64,000 nt of DNA, taken from contig OZ025877.1 in NCBI GenBank assembly GCA_964019415.1, forward strand, positions 6,800,141 to 6,864,140, in the 5' to 3' direction. Made by a program: the position numbers and the translations under genes. Positions 3,765 through 25,248 of this stretch are shown here, piece after piece. The stretch's first letter is position 1, and every line of letters begins with the position of its first letter. The stretch comes from Ianthella basta. Its lineage: Eukaryota > Porifera > Demospongiae > Verongiida > Ianthellidae. The notes beneath the pieces were generated by a model that saw nothing but the letters and a program-made list of their open reading frames with translations, was not told the origin of the DNA and searched no databases.

Positions 3765-5699
3765 CTAGCGTCTGTCAGTCTTTCCAAGCTTCCTCTTGCC
3801 GCTGTAGAGATGCTTGGGCTTCAGGTTGGGGATGGATCGATCTGCCTCCCCCTTCCTTGCATAGCGGCTCAACACCCTCCGCTGAGTGGACCTCCCCAAC
3901 TTAACTGCTTTCTTCCGCTGAACGTCATCTCTGAAGCCGCTCCTATCGCGAGGCACCCGAGAACTGCTCCTTGTTCTGGGCTGTGACGCAGGTGGTTGTG
4001 AAGTCTTCGGTAGCCCTGCTTTAGAGCGCGTTCTCTTACGAGAAATAGGCAGAGAAGGTGAGTCTCCCTCCTCCATGGCCTCGTCGTCTTCACTGCTTTG
4101 GTGTTCCTCATCATCCATCTCCTCCACCTCCTCACGTCTACTAAGGGAACGACTGCGGTGTCCACTGCCAGCGGTCCTAGGGGTGACAGGATGGTTGCGT
4201 GTCTTCTTGCTGATGCTTATAACTCTCTTCATCTTCTTCTTCTCTCTGATCTTCTGTACAGTTTTTCGCATGAGAATGGTCTCCTCGTCCTCTGGCTCTG
4301 ACTCATATTCTCCTGCCAGCTCCTTCAGTTCCTCCTCCTTCTCAAGTTCCTCCAACTTCTGCATAATTTCAGGATCAATGTAGTCAGCAATATTCTTCCC
4401 CTCCCAGATCTCCGGAATAGCGTCGTACTTGTGTGAGTCGTCTGCCAACTGGTGGTGGGCCTTCAGGTCCACAAGGTAGTCATCGCTTTGTTCCAGTTCA
4501 ATGTCTCTCAGAGTCCTCTTCTTCACTGCAGCTGCACGATCAGCCTTGGTCACCTTTGCTCCGGGAGGAATAAACGGTGGACGTTCCTTATCATCACGCA
4601 CCTTGGGTGTGGCTAGGTGGATGCGGTTTAGAACATCAGGGATCTTCTTTCCCTTCAACTTCACTTCCACGCGCTGGGCAAGAAGCAGTTCGCACGCCTC
4701 TGTCTTCACCTTCATAACTCCTTCCTCTGTCACTGCACTCATGGGGATCACAGTCACCCCTTCCGACTGCAGCTTCTTCAGCTCCTCTTGCACTTCAGCT
4801 GCAATCTCCTCGGGTCCCACAATGTCAGTCTTGTTGAGTGCAATGATGAGTGGCTTGTTGGTGAAGAGTGGTTTGATGTTCTCAAAGAGTAAAAGCTGCT
4901 CCTCCAGTGTGTGTCCGCACTGCTCAGAAAGATCAATCACGTACAAGATGGCCGCTCGAAGGTGAGCCAGAGCAGTGATAGCCTGCATCTCTATGGTATT
5001 CCTCTCCTCCAGGGGATGGTCCAAAATACCAGGTGTATCCACTACTTGCCAGCGAAGGTACCTATAGTCCATGTGACCCACAAAGAGCGACTTTGTGGTG
5101 AATGCATACGGTTGGACTTCCACGTCTGCTCGAGTAACTTTGTTCATGAAACTGGACTTGCCCACATTCGGGAACCCACACACAATGATTGTGCGTGTAT
5201 TGGGGTCAATGGAGGGGAGACGAGCAAGATGCTGCCGCACCTGTTCAAGGTACTGTAGGCTCTGGTTTTGGCGTTTCATGATGGTACACATCCGGCCCAG
5301 TGCAGCACGCTTCAGCTGCTTGCAGCGGTACAAGGAGTCTGCAAACTTCATCAGCCTCGAGTAATCCTTGGATACGTTGTCGATCAAATGCCTTGCCGTG
5401 TTAACTTGTCCAAGAGCCAGCTTGTAGTGGTCTCTATCGTAAAGAACGTTCATGAGGTCGGCGTAGAATGGATGCACGCTATCCAGCTGGGGGAACTCCT
5501 GGATGATGGTCGACAGCCGGTCGTGAAAATTCTGCTGAGTAAACTTGATCTTTCTGCCATAGAACTGACGTATCCTGGATATCTTGTACTGCTTGTGGAC
5601 AACTGTTGGCGTCTTTCTTTGCGTCTTCGATAAGGTTACGTCAATGAAGTCTTTGGCTGATGGAACAACGGTGATTTTCTTGAAGTTATAGCTCGCCAT
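3765..5699 (-). CDS. GTPBP4: NOG1 nucleolar GTPase (GTP-binding protein 4)
   Basis: Intronless, 644 aa, close to the usual 630-650 of the family. It is a nucleolar GTPase needed for assembly and export of the 60S ribosomal subunit. The NOG1 N-terminal helical region covers about residues 6-165. The circularly ordered GTPase motifs follow: G1 GFPNVGKS at 175-182, G3 DTPG at 220-223 and G4 NKTD at 288-291. The NOG C-terminal region ([20 protein letters not shown] onward) comes next, with an acidic stretch and a basic, RS-containing tail ending [12 protein letters not shown], typical of nucleolar retention. The start MASYNFKK is the family's; an in-frame ATG 14 codons upstream lies in the promoter. 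It is head-to-head with DHX15, another gene of RNA and ribosome processing. The lack of introns beside intron-rich neighbours is unusual and could reflect intron loss or a retrocopy that became the main gene. Confidence 0.96.
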
Positions 5700-5795
5700 T
5701 TTCCTGACACACGTGGGCGATAGCCAGCATGTGAGTATCACGTGATTTAGTGATGACGTCGTCTAACGTCCACGTTCCACCGCGCGGCCGCGAGG
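5700..5795. promoter_or_regulatory. bidirectional promoter NOG1/DHX15
   Basis: Only 96 bp separate the two start codons. The gap holds CACGTG at 5710-5715, TCACGTGA at 5738-5745 and the CRE-like TGACGTC at 5754-5760, followed by a GC-rich stretch (CCGCGCGGCCGCG) just before the DHX15 ATG. E-box plus CRE is typical of growth-linked housekeeping promoters. The motifs are seen; co-regulation of the two genes is inferred. Confidence 0.7.
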
Positions 5796-13010
<7,215 letters not shown>

Positions 13011-14625: not shown

Positions 14626-15033
14626 ATGGAGTCGCAGGGAAAAGCCCAAGAACTGAACGCAGAATGCTACATGAATCAGCATCGCATTCGCGAATTGTTT
14701 GAGAACCTCACGGCAGCTTTAGTGTACGAGAGACCAGAGGACCCTAAATCTTTTATTAAGGAGCACCTAGAGAAGTTGAAGAAAGCTCGAGACGAGGATT
14801 GCCCCCCTCCCAGCTTGCTGGACGAAAGCAACATCCTCTCCCTCTTTGGGATGATGGACCTCACCAAAAGAGGATACATCAAACTAGAACAGTACCACGC
14901 CGGCATGCAGAGCTTAGGGGTGAAGGAGTATAATCAGACACCATTTGGTTCTGAAGTAGACAAGATTTCTCTCGAGACTTTCACCCGTGAGGCAAAAGAG
15001 AGTCTAAAGAAGGCAGTGGGAACTTACGCATGA
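14626..15033 (+). CDS. EFCAB10: EFCAB10-like EF-hand/RIIa-type protein
   Basis: Single exon, 135 aa. The N-terminal helix pair (AECYMNQHRIRELFENLTAA, then YERPEDPKSFIKEHLEKLKK, about residues 10-55) is the dimerisation/docking (RIIa, DPY-30-like) fold used by axonemal proteins. NILSLFGMMDLTKRGYIKLE (about 66-86) is an EF-hand-type loop whose calcium ligands are only partly kept (D-T-R-Y-E spacing). Size and order agree with human EFCAB10 (about 127 aa). Proteins of this class sit in cilia and sperm tails. It is head-to-head with the TEX36-like gene through an X-box promoter. The ATG is the first in frame after that promoter. Confidence 0.85.
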   Translation: MESQGKAQELNAECYMNQHRIRELFENLTAALVYERPEDPKSFIKEHLEKLKKARDEDCPPPSLLDESNILSLFGMMDLTKRGYIKLEQYHAGMQSLGVKEYNQTPFGSEVDKISLETFTREAKESLKKAVGTYA

Positions 15034-15985: not shown

Positions 15986-16113
15986 TGTGTGGGTGTCATG
16001 TGTCATGTGTTCCACAGCATGCTGAGCATTTTAAACTCAACATCATTTTTTTTGCTCTGTACTGTTGTTGAGTAAATGAAATGTGAAATTAAAAAAAGTG
16101 TGTGTGTGTGTGT

Positions 16114-16181
<68 letters not shown>

Positions 16182-16340
16182 TGTGTGTCTGTATGACACA
16201 ACTTACTGTGTGTGTGCACTCTGCACATATTAAAACATACCGCTATGTTGTCCCTTCTGCACAGTGGATGACACATTCTTTCTTAAGACTGCATCAGCTT
16301 GATGAACATAGCTCTCTAGAGTAACAGCTCTGGACTCCTC
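15499..16340 (-). CDS. unknown small helical protein, 3' two exons
   Basis: Two exons splice in frame on the minus strand. 16340-16241 follows a CTGCGCAG acceptor and reads EESRAVTLESYVHQADAVLR, ending at a GTATGT donor. 15650-15499 follows a TGTAG acceptor and reads EDKAQLAKRANEARRSVLDE, ending KRFSEMM-stop. The product (about 83 residues visible) is charged and helical, likely coiled coil, without membrane or signal segments. A 5' exon with the start codon must lie to the right, where the promoter would be shared with the polyketide-type gene at 16526; I could not find it. The family is not recognised. Confidence 0.5.
15954..16190 (+). repeat. (TG)n tracts
   Basis: Two tracts, about 15954-15994 and 16099-16190, lie inside the intron of the unknown minus-strand gene. 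Unlike most tracts in the window, TG here is on the non-coding strand of that gene. Confidence 0.93.
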
Positions 16341-16525: not shown

Positions 16526-19500
16526 ATGGGGGAGACAGTGGTGGAAGCCTTTCTGTCCGCCGCGAAGACCCACCCCGACTTCCCCGTCTTGAGATGGCTT
16601 GACGAACGATGTGAAGTGGTGGAGACTCGTACATATGCTAACCTCCTGCAGACCGCTCGGCAGACGGCGGAGACGTTGATAGCTAACGGCGCTCAGCCAG
16701 GAGACCGTGCCGTGCTGTGTCACTCCCCAGGACTGGAATTCATTTCAGCGTTCTTCGGCTGCCTCCTAGCCCGAGTCATTGCAGGTAACGCTTCACCGCC
16801 GACAGCAGTTTCAACCTCAGCAACACGGTTGTATTGCTGCCTGTCTCACTGGTAACGCCCCTCTCTCTCCCTCTCCGCTTCCTCTTGCCTGCTTCTCCTC
16901 TTTCCTCCTCTCCGCTTCCCTCCCCTCTGCTTCACCCGCCCTCCCTCCTCAACTCCCTCTCCTCTCCCTCAACTTCTCTCTTCCTCCACTCCTGACTTTA
17001 GTACCAGTGAGCCCACCCAGTCCCGCCAAGATGGAGTACGGAATGAAGAAGCTGACAGCTTTGATGAACGACTGCACCTGCAAATTCTTCCTTACTTGCA
17101 GAGAGGGGAAGAAAATGACGACAGCAGAAGTGTTTAGGTATGAATGCTGCATTCACAACAAGACTAGGTGGTTGTAACGCTAACTTTGACAACCCTCTCC
17201 TGCTCACAACACCACAGAAGCATGCACACGTCAACTTAGCACGATGTGTGTCCTCACCCCACTTTTAATGTGTACTGCCGCACTGCACAAGAAGCCATAG
17301 CTCAGTGCAGCAAATGCGAGTGTTGCTGTTTCAGTGCACTAGCTGTATATGTAATAGTAAATGCAGCACCACCCAAGAGGTGTCTGCGGGATTTAGAGCA
17401 CGAAGCTCGAGGTGCAAAGTGCCTGAGTGCTGAGTGGTCTGAATCCTCGCAGGCACGACTGGGCACCGTTTAAGTTTTATACAACCAAAACTGTTCTTTA
17501 ATCCAATCAAAATTGTTTCCCCTCTGTCATTGGCAACCAATGACGATGTGGGAAGCCCAATAGAAGAACTCCCTGATACCTGTAAGCCTTCTCATTGCTC
17601 TCTTTCGCCACCTGCCCTTAATCCTACTTTGTATGAAGGCCATCCAATGAGAACTGACTGAATAGTTCACAGGGACAGCACGTATTACAGCAAATATAAA
17701 ACTGTTGTGATGACAACATCTCCAAACCTCACGTGCACTCTGCCTGCAACGTACTATATGGGATTTATAAGCACAAGCACTCTGACCACCGCATTCATCT
17801 ATGGGATTTAGTCACTTGTGGAACTATCAGAATGCCTCTCTGAGATTTAGAATCATCATTTAGATGCATGTTACCATGGCAACAGGATGTGTATCACACA
17901 TAAGAGGTTATAAATCTCTACACAATTATTTCACAGTCATTTCAACAGTTCTTTGCTACAGTGGTTTGCAAGTTGCTTGTCAGTGTACAATATGGGAATA
18001 GCCTTTTCACATTACGTGATACTGGACACAGCAAATGTAACCAACCATGTGATTCAAAAAGCCTGTTCCTATTTGTACACTGACAAGCAACTCACACACG
18101 GCAGTGTGCAGTTAAATACATCAGACATTATACACTGTACTATACACAGTGGTAATTACGATGGTCTATGTACCATGGTGACACGAATGAAAGAGAACGT
18201 TTGAAACTACACAATCATGGTAAGGAAAGAAGGGGGGAAGGAAAAATGGCAGTGAACTGGACCAGCACCAGAAACCTCCAGATCTTAAGCCGACCCTTTA
18301 GCAGCTGGAGCACTGGTCACCACCAACAGCCACCGATCCATTCCCTCCTTATATCCCAATGTGGGCGGGCTCCATACAGAGCCTCCTTTGAAACTCCCAC
18401 ATCGGGCACTGACTAATCAGCGACTTTCTCGGAAATGCTAATTACGATAGTGTACATAGACCATAAACCAGGGAGTTTCAAAGGAGACTCTGGATGGAGC
18501 CTGCCCACATCGGTATATAAGGAGGGAATGGATCGGTGTCTATTGACGATGACCAGTGACCTGGCTGCTAAAGGGTTGGCTTAAGATCTGGAGGTTGCCG
18601 GTGCTGGTCCAGTTCACTGCCGTTTTTCCCCCCGCTCCCTTCTTTCCTTACCATGTGTAGTTTCAAACGTTGTCTTTATAAATGAAGTGAGGGCTTCTCA
18701 GCTGGCTCAGGCATCAGAAAGGGTTGGTTCTCCAATACCAGCTTCACAACAGGGTTGAAAACCTTGCTGACATTTCGACCAGATGCTCTGGTCTTCTTCA
18801 GGGCGAAGAAGACCAGAGCATCTGTCTTTATACACTATGGTGGTGACTCATTAGGAGAGTAACTATAACAACAACAAGTACTGTAAGTCTAGTGATGGTG
18901 TGTGTATGTGTACAGCGCCCACTCCAGTACATTATATACGTATTGTACACCCACAGGTCTGCAGTATCACACATGAATGTCCATGTGTTGAGTTCAGATG
19001 ACTTTGAGCAGAACAAGGTGGTTAGACAGGATGGAACACATGGAGAGGATCCTCCCAGTCCTGACACAGATGTGGTTGCCTTCCTCCAGTACACCTCTGG
19101 CTCCACAGGTTTGCCAAAGGGGGTGGTCATCACACATGGCAATTTGATGCACAACCTGTGCCATGTGAAGAAAGCCCGCAACAGTGGTCCATTTGGGTCT
19201 GAAGTTGAGGTGAGCTGGCTTCCACATTTTCACGACATGGGGCTCACCCTCAGCTACCTCTTCACCATCGTGTATGGAGCACAAGGCTATTTTATGAGCC
19301 CTCAGGCATTTGTTAGAGCCCCTTCTCTGTGGTTAAGAGCCCTGAGCACTTACCGTGGCACTCTCACTAGTGGACCCAATTTCGCTTTTGAACTGGTAAT
19401 GAAGAGAGGCCTCATTGATGACATCAACCTTAGTAGCCTCAAGCAAATACTCACCGGAGCTGAGCCCATCCACATTGAGACCATTGAGAAGTTTCAGCAA

Positions 19501-22500
19501 GCTCTTGCACCATTTGGGCTGGCCGATAATGTGTTTGTTGCTGGATATGGCCAGGCCGAGCATGTGGTGATTATCTCAGCAAGTACACCTAATCAGGAGC
19601 CTGTAGTGAAACAAGGGCTGATCTCCTGTGGGCCTCCGCTAGATGGCATTTCAATGAAGATTGTAGACCCCAACACAATGAAGGAACTACCTGAAGGTGA
19701 TGTTGGGGAGATATGGGTTACGAGCAGTGGCAGGGTACAGGGCTACTGGGGCAAGGAGGACCTGTCAGAGAAGACATTCCAAGCAGAAACAATCCCAAGT
19801 GATGGAGAAGGATATCTCAGAACAGGAGATTTGGGATACATGAATGATGGGGAAGTGTTCATTGCAGGACGATTGAAGGACATCATAATTGTCCACGGCC
19901 GTAATATTTACCCGAATGACATCGAATTCTTTCTGGAAGGTATGTTTGGCAGTCTCAGACCTGGTAGTACTGTTGCTTACCCAATAGAATCGGAGGCTAC
20001 AAAGGAGGAGCTGATTGGTATTGTTGCTGAAGTCCTCTTAGAAGAGGGTATGAACAAGGAGGAGCTGCACAAACTTGCCACTGACATGGCACAATCTGTG
20101 GTCATGCACTTTGAAGCTGAAGTGAGCTCTGTTGCTCTCACCAAGATAAAAACAGTTCCTAAAACCAGTTCTGGGAAGGTGCAAAGAAAGCAGACCAAAG
20201 CCAATCTGCAAGAAGGGACAATAATTCCCCTTTACAACTGGGACATCAGCTCTCTACAAACTAGCCAGCAGCCTAAGGCCCGAAGTATCACATCTTTAAC
20301 CCAACCCTCAATGGTTGATGTTGGAGTTGTCTTGTCGGAGGTGTTAGGCATGCAACTGGAAGAAGATACTGACTTCTGGGCTTTGGGGTGCACCTCTCTA
20401 AAGGCAGCAGAAATTAGCCAGACTATGAAGGAAAAGTATCAAGTTGAAATGGCAATTCACAGCCTCTATGCATGCAAGACGGTCTCAGACGTGTACCACC
20501 AACTTGTAGCATCAGACAGCCTTGCTCCCACTCCAGTCGTGGAGAGTGCCCCATCTGTGCAACGTACAGATGAAGGAATAGCGATCATTGGAATGGCATG
20601 CAGGTTCCCACAAGCGGACACACCAGAGGAATTTTGGAAGATGCTAATGGCAGGCATGGATGCATCTACAGTTGTCTCCATGCATGATCTGCAAGGCACT
20701 ACCATACGAGGATGCTTCACCAAGGCAGTTGACGTCTTTGACTATCGCTGGTTTGGAATGAGTGAAGAGAAAGCAAGCCAACTTGACCCCCAGCACTCAA
20801 TGTTGCTCCACACTGTGAATGACACCCTCATAAATGCTGGCTATGACACAACAACCCCAATAAAAAGCAACATGGGAGTCTTCATAGGGATGAGTGGCAA
20901 GAAGGGTGGCAATGAAGGAGGTGAACAAGGAGATTTTAATTCAGAAGCAACCTTGCCTGCAATGGCCGCAAGCATGATCTCCTACCACTTTGGTCTCACT
21001 GGGCCCTCTATCGCTGTTGATGTAGCATGTGCCTCATCTCTTACAGCTCTGCATCTGGCACGTAGTGCCATCCTTCTAGGTGAGTGTGAATCAGCCGTTG
21101 TTGCTGGTGTTAATGCTCTGCTAACGGCAGAAGGATTTCATGTGAGTGGGTTGTCAACAGATGAAAAGTGCAAACTGTTTGACAAGAATGGCACTGGCTA
21201 TGTCAGAGGGGAGGGATGTGGTGCAGTTCTCCTCAAACCTGTCTCCAAAGCACAGAAGGACGGCGATCGCATCCTAGCAGTGATTCGTGGGTCGGTGTGT
21301 AACCACAGTGGAAGCACAGCTCCAATGTTCAAAATGGCTTCTCCTTCCAGTCAGGTCAGTCTTCTGGAATTGGCCCTGTCAGCAGCTGGCCTTCAACCTG
21401 ACAATGTTGCCTTCATAGAAGCCCATGCATCTGGGAAGGCAATTGCAGATGTGATGGAAGCAGAATCAATAGCCACAGTATACAAAGACACAATGAGAAG
21501 AAAAGAGATGTATGTTAGTTCTGTAAAGGGCAATATTGGGCACTTGGAGGAGGGTGCAGGTGTGGCTAGTCTGATCAAAGCAGTACTCTCACTGCAGCAT
21601 TCAGTGCTTCCACCAACCATTAATGTAGAGTCCCCACATCCCATGTTGCCAAGCAGCATCACCATCCCAACAGGTCAAGCTAGGATCTTGGAGCACAATG
21701 AGCAATGTCCGCCCAACATGCTGGCTGCTGGGGTGACTGCCTTCAGTCTCGGAGGAGCAAGCGCACATGTACTGTTACAGCAGGGAAGCATGCTACCAAG
21801 TATGGCAAGGGTGGCTGTCGGGGTCATTGTATCACTGGAAACAGAAAACCTACCCTCAGTGCAGGCCTATGAGAACATCTTCAAAGACCTAACCATGCTC
21901 CCTGGATTTGGTTGTGGTGTGAGTGAGGTGTACAGTGAAGCTGTGAAGCTCTGTGGCATTGAGATGCAGAGAGTGGACACCTTCCCCCCAGTGCTGATGG
22001 AGTTCACCCTAATTCACTGCATCCTTCAATCGCTGAATGCAGTTGGCACTGAGTTCACTTTCTTTGCAGCAACCTGTCCAGTCTCTGAGCTTCTTGCTTC
22101 TGTTCATGCTGGATATCTTTCTCTCAGAGATGCACTGGCTATTCTACTTGCAAAGATGATGCCAGACATGAGAAACAAGGCATTTTCAGACACACTCACT
22201 CCTCTGCTCCCAAAATGCCTCCTGTACTCCCCTTCAAATGGCCATCTGTTGGAAGCAGGGAAGCCTAGCACGACCTACCTACCTATGCTGATTAAAGATG
22301 TATGGGAGCAGTCATCCCTTCGTGTAGCAGTGGAAGACATCTTCATGGCTACTGCTCATCTGAAGGCCCACACCATTGTCAGCATGGGAAGTGGAACACC
22401 TCACGATAGTGAAGATGGCATACATGCGTTTGGTTGCAACAACATGTCTTCCCTGCACAAATTCAAGCAAGCCTTAATGGAGCTACGTTCAGACTTTGAC

Positions 22501-23724
22501 CTGCAGGCCCGACTGATCAGGAGAAAGCCGTCAGAAACCACTCTCCTACCGCAAGTGTACAGCCGCTTTCCTCTGAGGTCTGCAATTGCTGGTCACACAA
22601 AGGATCCCTTCTCACCCGACTATCCTCCTTGCCCTCGAAGGAGGTCATCAAGCATTTACGGAGACTTGGCCATCCATGTTCTCTCTTATAGTTCCTCTGA
22701 GTCGTCCAACAACAGCATCACTGAGGCAACCATCAACATGAACAGTGTGGAGCGACTGATGCTGGCAGTAGAGATAGTGTGTCTATCTGCCCAGGAGATG
22801 TTGGACTTTGACCTTGTGAACAAGTCCATATCAGAGCATGAGGACTTGGAAGAAATGGGTCTGGAAGGAGATAGAGTGGATGAACTGATTCAGAAACTGA
22901 AAAACCGGACAGGTGTGGAGCTCAATCTGCAATCACTTCGAGGTAAATCAGCAACAGATTTGGCTAAAATGATTGTGACACAGCTCTATCCTGGAGTGGC
23001 AGTGAGGGATGATGTTCAGCCCACAACTCCAGATATGACTGAAGCAGTCGATGTCAAGGAAGTTATTGTCACCGCCCTTTACAACAAGGTGAAGACAAAG
23101 TACCCCACGTTGCCTCCCATTGAGATGGCACGATCCTGCAATGTGTATGGCCTTGGAATAAAATCAGACTTCCTGACAGAATTGACAATGTATGTGCGTG
23201 AAAAGTATCATTATGTGCTGTCCTTTGGAAGGCTGCATCAGCTGGGAACACTGGAGCTGATTGCGGAGACAGTTGCACAAGATATGGAGCAACGAAGGCA
23301 GTCAATATACCCTGTGCTTACAAAGCCTGGCTATTGCACTGATCCACCCATGCAGAAGATTCTGCAAGCATCTCCGCAAGACCTTCAGAAGATCCACAAC
23401 TTCACCATCACCAACACAGACGTTGGTCAGATCCGTTTCCTTGGCTACAGCGACCTCACAGGAATTGATCTAAACTCCACTGTTCTCATTGACGCTGGGG
23501 AAGTTACTGTTTACCCGCCTACAATGGACCTCCCGCCTCTCGGAAATGGCCTCAACAAACCGGCTCTTATTACCTTCTACAACATCCACCCAAGGAAGCT
23601 AACACCTGAGGGCTACGAACGTATGGAGAGACGACTGAAGAAGAACTGCGAAGAGAAAGGACTGTGTTTCATTGCTTATGACCAAGTCAGTGGTGATTTC
23701 GTCTTCAAAGTGGCCGGATTCTGA
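16526..23724 (+). CDS. FAAL-ACP-KS hybrid synthase with C-terminal NUP98-type domain
   Basis: Three exons (16526-16784, 17002-17137, 18957-23724) encode 1,720 aa. Residues 1 to about 570 are a fatty-acyl-AMP ligase: YTSGSTGLPKG (about 176), VSWLPHFHDMGL, GYGQAEH, YLRTGDLGY, HGRNIYPNDIE and SSGKVQR with the A10 Lys. A carrier domain follows with a Ser candidate in LGCTSLKAAEI (about 610). The ketosynthase (about 670-1070) has DVACASSL with the active Cys, EAHASGK and KGNIGHLE with both His. An acyltransferase-like remnant (about 1130-1200, CPVSELLASVHAGYLSLRDA) lacks GHSxGE. Two further carrier-like helical parts follow (about 1393-1476, no Ser in place; about 1499-1573, GLGIKSDFL). Residues about 1580-1720 (YPVLTKPGYCTDPPM ... 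GDFVFKVAGF) are a NUP98/Nup145N autopeptidase-like domain ending exactly at the cleavage position. It probably activates a fatty acid as the adenylate, loads it on the carrier and may extend it. The 4.77-kb uninterrupted exon 3 is unlike its neighbours. No release domain is seen. Confidence 0.9.
18190..18675. mobile_element. ~486-bp foldback element with ~200-bp arms
   Basis: In intron 2 of the synthase gene, the segment from AAGAGAACGTTTGAAACTAC (18190) to about 18400 is repeated in inverse orientation from about 18470 to 18675. It includes CAGTGAACTGGACCAGCACC against GGTGCTGGTCCAGTTCACTG and the TTTAGCAGC / GCTGCTAAA part. The short loop contains ATTACGATAGTGTACATAG. A transcript would form a very long hairpin. 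There is no coding capacity. Confidence 0.85.
18690..18838 (-). mobile_element. element C with hammerhead-like core, copy 1
   Basis: TCAGAAAGGGTTGGTTCTCC... is followed by ACATTTCGACCAGATGCTCT and its inverse. On the minus strand it reads CTGAAGA, A, then a GACCAGA/TCTGGTC hairpin, then GAAATGTC. A near-identical copy lies at 38488-38691. Confidence 0.6.
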
Positions 23725-24355: not shown

Positions 24356-25104
24356 CTTCTGCTGTGAATCATCAGCGAGGGGTGGTATGGGGTTCATTTG
24401 GGCCTTTCGGATAAGCAGCATCACATTTGGTCTACAGGTAGAACAGCATGCAGTATTCCGCAGTGTGACACGTGTGAGAGGAGGACCATAGTAACCTATC
24501 ATCCAAACTGAGTCATGCTACAAACTCACAAGCATTTAAAGGTGTGCTGGGAGGGGAGCATGTGTGTGTATGCTTGTGTGTGTGTGCGTGTGTGTGTGTG
24601 TGAGTGTGTTTTAATTCAGACTCTGTATAATATAATGCGCATGGGGTAATAAGATGAATGTGCATGTACAACAACCACACACACACGCTGTCATGCTGTG
24701 CTGCTATGCCATATTCAACAAGTCACTCAGTACATGAAACACTGACACTGTACGATGTAGTATCTTCACACTAACAGGAAGGTTTTTGGGAGGTCTCCAC
24801 TTCCGCTTTCCAGTATAATGCTGTTTGCTTCCCACCAGTTGTCCTTAGGGTTGGGTAGTTCAGCTGTCTCATGCATTCTCTTTACAGTGTCTTGTGGAAC
24901 AGGTAGACCACGCTCTACGTTCCTTCTCAGTGCTTCATTGATGCTGCACACAACATACACAATGGCTAACCCAAAACCACCTACAGAAGTATAGTGAGTG
25001 AAGTATAGAGCATAGTTTACCACACATAAAAACACACGTATACACACACACACACGCATGCACTCACGCACGCACACACACACACACACACAGACGCACA
25101 CACA

Positions 25105-25157
<53 letters not shown>

Positions 25158-25191
25158 ACGCACGCACAAACACGCACACACACACACGCAC

Positions 25192-25248
<57 letters not shown>

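Follow-up and report, generated by a model that had tools for sequence, protein, structure and literature searches.

A spliced gene in a 64,000-nucleotide stretch of contig OZ025877.1 (assembly GCA_964019415.1, forward-strand positions 6,800,141 to 6,864,140; hereafter the window) encodes a protein in which a fatty acyl-adenylate ligase (FAAL), carrier domains, and a ketosynthase (KS) are followed by a C-terminal domain of the NUP98 autoproteolytic type (APD). This architecture, near certain in itself, had been proposed with the coordinates 16526..23724 in an initial annotation made from the letters alone; the coordinates were right, and profile matches, folds, and conservation in relatives confirm the domain order. 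We assign a probability of roughly 55% to the fuller reading, mechanism included, that the gene specifies a type I acyl synthase of one module, encoded by a sponge and equipped with a docking APD. The gene lies on the + strand and comprises three exons, its introns bounded by GT/AG and its 1720 codons free of internal stops (Table 1). An earlier description of a single exon holds for most of the protein, which occupies one 4.77-kb exon, but not for FAAL residues 1–131, which lie on two small exons. The splice model is backed by the alignment of the spliced protein with a solved FAAL (7r7e_A), which spans both exon junctions, and by a relative, P0007, that is continuous in one frame across the exon 2/3 junction. 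A search of the open-access literature by title and start of abstract found no described protein joining a FAAL or KS to a nucleoporin APD, consistent with the annotation's claim of novelty.

Catalytic and degenerate domains of the synthase

Residue conservation was scored over 11 fusion members, namely the window protein and 10 database proteins. The N-terminal domain of the window protein contains the core motifs of adenylating enzymes, and its sequence suggests a closer relation to FAALs than to acyl-CoA ligases. Its best sequence match in the structural database is 7r7e_A, deposited as "Polyketide synthase." The top 15 distinct PDB matches (E-values 9.4e-92 to 2.6e-52) bear varied deposited names (polyketide synthase [PKS], saframycin synthetase B [3kxw], acyl-CoA synthase, fatty acyl-adenylate ligase, and FadD32/FadD23/FadD28), and we count them as FAALs partly by presumption. 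The Cys-His-His residues of the KS and the serine of the third acyl carrier protein domain (ACP3) are retained in all 11 members, and the serine of ACP1 in 10. The catalytic serine of the acyltransferase (AT) motif GHSxGE is retained in none (0/11), the motif being replaced by TCPVSE, TCPISE, IGPLSE, VGPLSE, TNGPSE, TSLCAE, or TNLCAE. The AT fold is present though the serine is lost, leaving the protein without the functional cis-AT of a type I PKS. No reductase domain occurs among the Pfam matches of the window protein. These features suggest a scheme in which the FAAL would adenylate a fatty acid and load it onto ACP1, from which the KS would take the chain and extend it, or condense it, with a unit on ACP3. 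Because the cis AT is dead, that unit would be loaded in trans by another enzyme.

The fusion recurs among database proteins. A query with residues 1320–1610 yielded 1921 candidates, of which six passed E ≤ 0.001; all six have the FAAL, carrier, KS, and PF04096. With the N-terminal half of P0002 as the query there were 7336 matches, and PF04096 occurs in 10 of the best 120. Over residues 1320–1610, the relative P0001 shares 99% identity with the window protein and, on that basis, may come from the same or a sister species. At least 10 relatives keep the FAAL or KS and the APD in one frame, which rules out a gene-prediction chimera. More generally, one might suspect a chimera made during assembly or gene prediction, contaminating bacterial DNA, or a gene in decay, since a ~38 kb segment carrying the gene occurs twice in near-identical form with sharp ends, a possible assembly duplication error. 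We regard such an artefact or dead gene as very improbable: the ten database proteins share the architecture in a conserved reading frame, the KS and ACP3 catalytic residues are kept throughout, the N-terminus is spliced, and the neighboring genes are of animal type.

Phylogenetic analysis of the KS used the 11 fusion sequences and 43 non-fusion sequences, which were hand-chosen from 110 among the matches listed and served as the outgroup. The fusion members form one group (support 100/99), and every non-fusion sequence bearing a species name is bacterial. Animal fatty acid synthase (FAS) is absent from this tree; in the PDB sequence search, KSs of modular PKSs outscore animal FAS. The members divide into subfamily A (eight proteins) and subfamily B (three), the latter lacking both ACP2 and the RRRSSS motif. 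In all eight subfamily A proteins, RRRSSSI/VY and a following Ser-rich stretch (mostly SSSSESSNNSI) are kept between the dead AT and ACP2; the sequence resembles a site of phosphorylation or a basic signal. The FAAL P-loop also varies, with a 27-residue insert inside it in P0032 (residues about 60–90) and no P-loop in P0038 and P0049, perhaps reflecting an intron in subfamily B.

Bacterial FAAL-containing type I PKSs, such as the cyanobacterial olefin-synthase-like proteins, account for much of the matches listed, and the best-scoring among them share ~38–41% KS identity with the fusion. Their N-terminal order is FAAL, carrier, KS, AT, and matching Pfam sets were observed among our matches. 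The fusion protein differs from them in its dead AT, the lack of a detected reductase, its introns, and its separate KS clade. Many bacterial matches end in PF13469/PF00685 and PF12697, which we take to be sulfotransferase and hydrolase domains; the fusion protein instead has two carriers and the NUP98-type APD. Cyanobacterial olefin synthase (Ols) employs a C-terminal sulfotransferase and thioesterase to release a terminal alkene, and no Pfam match to such domains was found in the window protein, P0002, P0005, or P0006. Mycobacterial Pks13 resembles the fusion protein in its carrier, KS, and AT folds (8cuy_A, 9f48_A) but has an active AT, a thioesterase, a separate FAAL partner, and no APD. 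The fusion shares with animal type I FAS and the animal FAS-like PKSs its multidomain KS organization and its animal host; it differs from them in starting with a FAAL and in having neither a functional AT nor reductive domains. We propose that its ancestor was a bacterial FAAL-PKS that acquired a NUP98-type APD. A single gain before the deep subfamilies A and B parted would be the simplest history, although not a proved one.

A candidate docking domain at the C-terminus

Fold and sequence profile both identify the C-terminus as a NUP98 APD, in agreement with the initial annotation, whose label of "autopeptidase" is nevertheless misleading. None of the 11 proteins has the Ser of the cleavage site or the His before it, and each chain ends 0–1 residues past the Phe equivalent to NUP98 Phe863, the NUP98 cleavage point, leaving neither an HFS site nor a downstream peptide. 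Judged by its residues, the APD here is no autopeptidase. It further differs from the APDs of NUP98, Nup145N, and Nup116 in having no downstream Nup96 and in residing on an enzyme. No match to the FG-nucleoporin family was found by Pfam in the window protein, which has a FAAL at its N-terminus and not the phenylalanine-glycine (FG) repeats and Gle2-binding region of the NUP98 nucleoporin. The same genome has its own, separate NUP98-NUP96 gene, in which HFS is kept (EHFSKYR). The fused APD is 37% identical to this NUP98 and is intronless, whereas at least two introns interrupt that region of the genome's own NUP98; together these differences rule out a recent duplicate. The absence of introns makes derivation from a processed copy possible.

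A second role of the NUP98 APD is anchoring through Nup96 or the Nup88 propeller (PMC11148069). Docking is the likeliest role of the fused APD because the domain has the form of processed NUP98. Reuse of the fold for docking, as suggested earlier, is in keeping with the NUP98 APD fold, its retention with the enzyme in relatives, and a terminus matching the processed NUP98 end. Already ending at the P1 Phe, the APD would serve as a permanent docking module: its groove would hold a partner's peptide or propeller, and the synthase would thereby be brought into a complex or to a particular cellular site. The nuclear pore is one possible docking partner. Distant relatives retain the same pairing, a pattern suggesting that a component of the nuclear pore was co-opted in an animal as a connecting element of a biosynthetic enzyme. 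A nuclear-pore anchoring domain is here preserved outside a nucleoporin, providing a natural test of whether the APD alone can dock without self-cleavage.

A more specific proposal is that the APD keeps the NUP98 partners, Nup88 and the Nup96 N-terminus, so that the synthase is tethered to the pore and acyl synthesis is tied to the nuclear envelope. We consider this unlikely: the loop that holds WPTDKTSRC in NUP98 is ~10 residues shorter in the fusion APD, subfamily A has a near-invariant helix of its own, EGY(E/D)(R/K)MERRL(K/R)KNC, and identity to the NUP98 of the same genome is only 37%. Slightly less probable again is the boldest version, in which a horizontally acquired bacterial fatty-acyl synthase became nuclear-pore-associated via a ready-cut NUP98 anchor, thereby linking the making of acyl chains to the nuclear envelope. 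If true, it would provide the first demonstration of a sponge-encoded type I ketosynthase and the first enzyme on a nucleoporin docking domain.

The APD could also be a structural cap or an intramolecular partner of ACP3 and the dead modules, folding on the same or a second synthase copy with no outside partner and replacing a release domain. FAAL-PKSs often carry a release domain after the last carrier; here the APD follows ACP3 directly, and two adjoining modules have lost catalytic residues with retention of their folds. This explanation nonetheless appears doubtful to us, no more probable than the boldest pore scenario. Between the window protein and P0005, identity is highest in the linker with RRRSSS (63.6%) and the APD (63.4%), compared with 55.1% for the KS, 54.0% for the FAAL, 52.5% for ACP2, 44.1% for ACP1, 40.2% for the dead AT, and 34.0% for ACP3, all as raw percentages. 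Because the APD is more conserved than the adjoining carriers and AT in this pair, an outside ligand is the simpler explanation.

Several observations weigh against an active synthase with a docking APD. The identity differences just given are modest, and between the window protein and subfamily B the APD (29–31%) is less conserved than the KS (42–44%) and the FAAL (41–42%). In an APD tree with only three NUP98 rows, the fusion sequences form one group with support of only 87/86, recovered in 90% of 200 bootstrap trees. Subfamily A APDs are 33–38% identical to NUP98 and, with the shortened loop, the domain may have been stripped of its NUP98-partner surface. Among the enzymatic domains, ACP1 of P0032 lacks its serine, the KS motif HGTGT is altered to HASGK in window-type members, so that KS function is a prediction, and structure prediction for the AT is uneven, the mean predicted local distance difference test score ranging from 78 to 48 across five models.

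Table 1. Exons and domains of the fusion gene, in window coordinates
Feature	Position	Strand	Remarks
Exon 1	16526..16784	+	ATG and N-terminal part of FAAL; PF00501 7.7e-11 on its open reading frame; donor GT at 16785
Exon 2	17002..17137	+	FAAL continued; AG before, GT after
Exon 3	18957..23724	+	4.77 kb; remainder of protein; stop codon 23722-23724
FAAL (AMP-binding) catalytic part, in exon 3	18979..19749	+	PF00501 7.2e-51; ligase C-terminal part next
Carrier ACP1	20329..20499	+	PF00550 1.4e-11; pantetheine Ser present (GCTSL)
KS	20572..21630	+	PF00109/PF02801; Cys-His-His present
Degenerate AT	21787..22530	+	Fold kept; GHSxGE catalytic Ser absent in 11/11 members
RRRSSSI/VY linker motif	22636..22659	+	Subfamily A 8/8, subfamily B 0/3
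Degenerate carrier ACP2	22693..22995	+	Carrier fold without Ser
Carrier ACP3	23047..23289	+	Ser present (LGIKS) in 11/11
NUP98-type APD	23302..23721	+	Last residue aligns with NUP98 residue 863 (P1 Phe of cleavage site), then stop

Genomic setting and host assignment

The neighboring genes are of animal type (NOG1, an EFCAB10 homologue, a BTB-Kelch gene, and a PDE12-like gene), and Pfam matches were obtained in seven of the nine frames scanned. Bacterial contamination is ruled out by the introns and these neighbors. A search with NOG1 gave 7834 matches, the four best of 120 at 73–92% identity. Dysidea avara, at 66%, is the only named sponge among the best 120; by E-value it stands behind two sharks (64%) and a partial protein labeled Aphis, and its 66% is equaled by a frog. 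Match rank alone therefore decides nothing. A midpoint-rooted tree was built from 48 rows, comprising the window's NOG1 and 47 hand-picked from the best 120, including the partial Aphis-labeled protein (P0125) on a very long branch. The window's NOG1 groups with its four best matches (100/100) and adjoins the Dysidea group (94/91); window and Dysidea together fall within a clade supported at 99/99 and separate from vertebrates and Saccoglossus. With one named sponge as its anchor, this tree points to a sponge as the most likely host. KS content alone would also fit a ctenophore; the NOG1 tree favors a sponge. The demosponge marker silicatein was not found, all 14 rows (five distinct) from 30 of 45 matches having an active-site Cys. 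Some sponge groups lack silicatein; the result fits such a group but proves nothing.

The genome searched spans 209 Mb in 96 contigs. A PF00109 profile search, which reads single exons without splicing and could miss short ones, gave six matches: the two copies of the fusion gene, three exons of one C7 gene, and one weak C13 match (E 3.1e-4). The translation of the C7 gene resembles what we take to be the mitochondrial type II enzyme, OXSM. Within the limits of that search, and setting aside the weak C13 match, no other type I-like KS was found besides the two near-identical copies of the fusion gene. A 2024 survey that included 896 sponge transcriptome assemblies states that sponges encode only mitochondrial KS enzymes and no type I KS, attributes to dinoflagellate symbionts the type I FAS genes present in sponge datasets, and places the possible origin of animal FAS in ParaHoxozoa (PMC10764717). 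The failure to find another type I KS agrees with this survey and suggests that the fusion gene is an exception, if the sponge assignment holds; the survey's statement that sponge genomes encode no other KS protein would then need amending. A conserved, spliced type I KS gene beside a sponge-like NOG1 is an exception worth testing.

The EFCAB10 homologue (PF24548, 3e-20; window 14626-15033) lies directly upstream of the fusion gene on the same strand. NOG1 is a single long open frame (window 3768-5762) ~11 kb from the fusion gene, and the two genes may be linked in another species also, as suggested only by the equal length, 3,731,664 bases, of the longest contig given for NOG1 P0123 and for fusion protein P0005. 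The duplicated ~38 kb segment extends over window 2139-40495, with the second, reversed copy at C1:7240466-7277965. Compared stretches are 99.94–100% identical, and the C1 copy lacks ~855 bases near window 11085-11940. The pair resembles two alleles, or else a duplication of very recent date; an error in the assembly is possible. GT/AC microsatellites surround the gene (window 16098-16192, 24561-24609, and 25042-25245) and occur elsewhere in the window and at other genome loci, appearing in translation as CVCV or HTHT runs.
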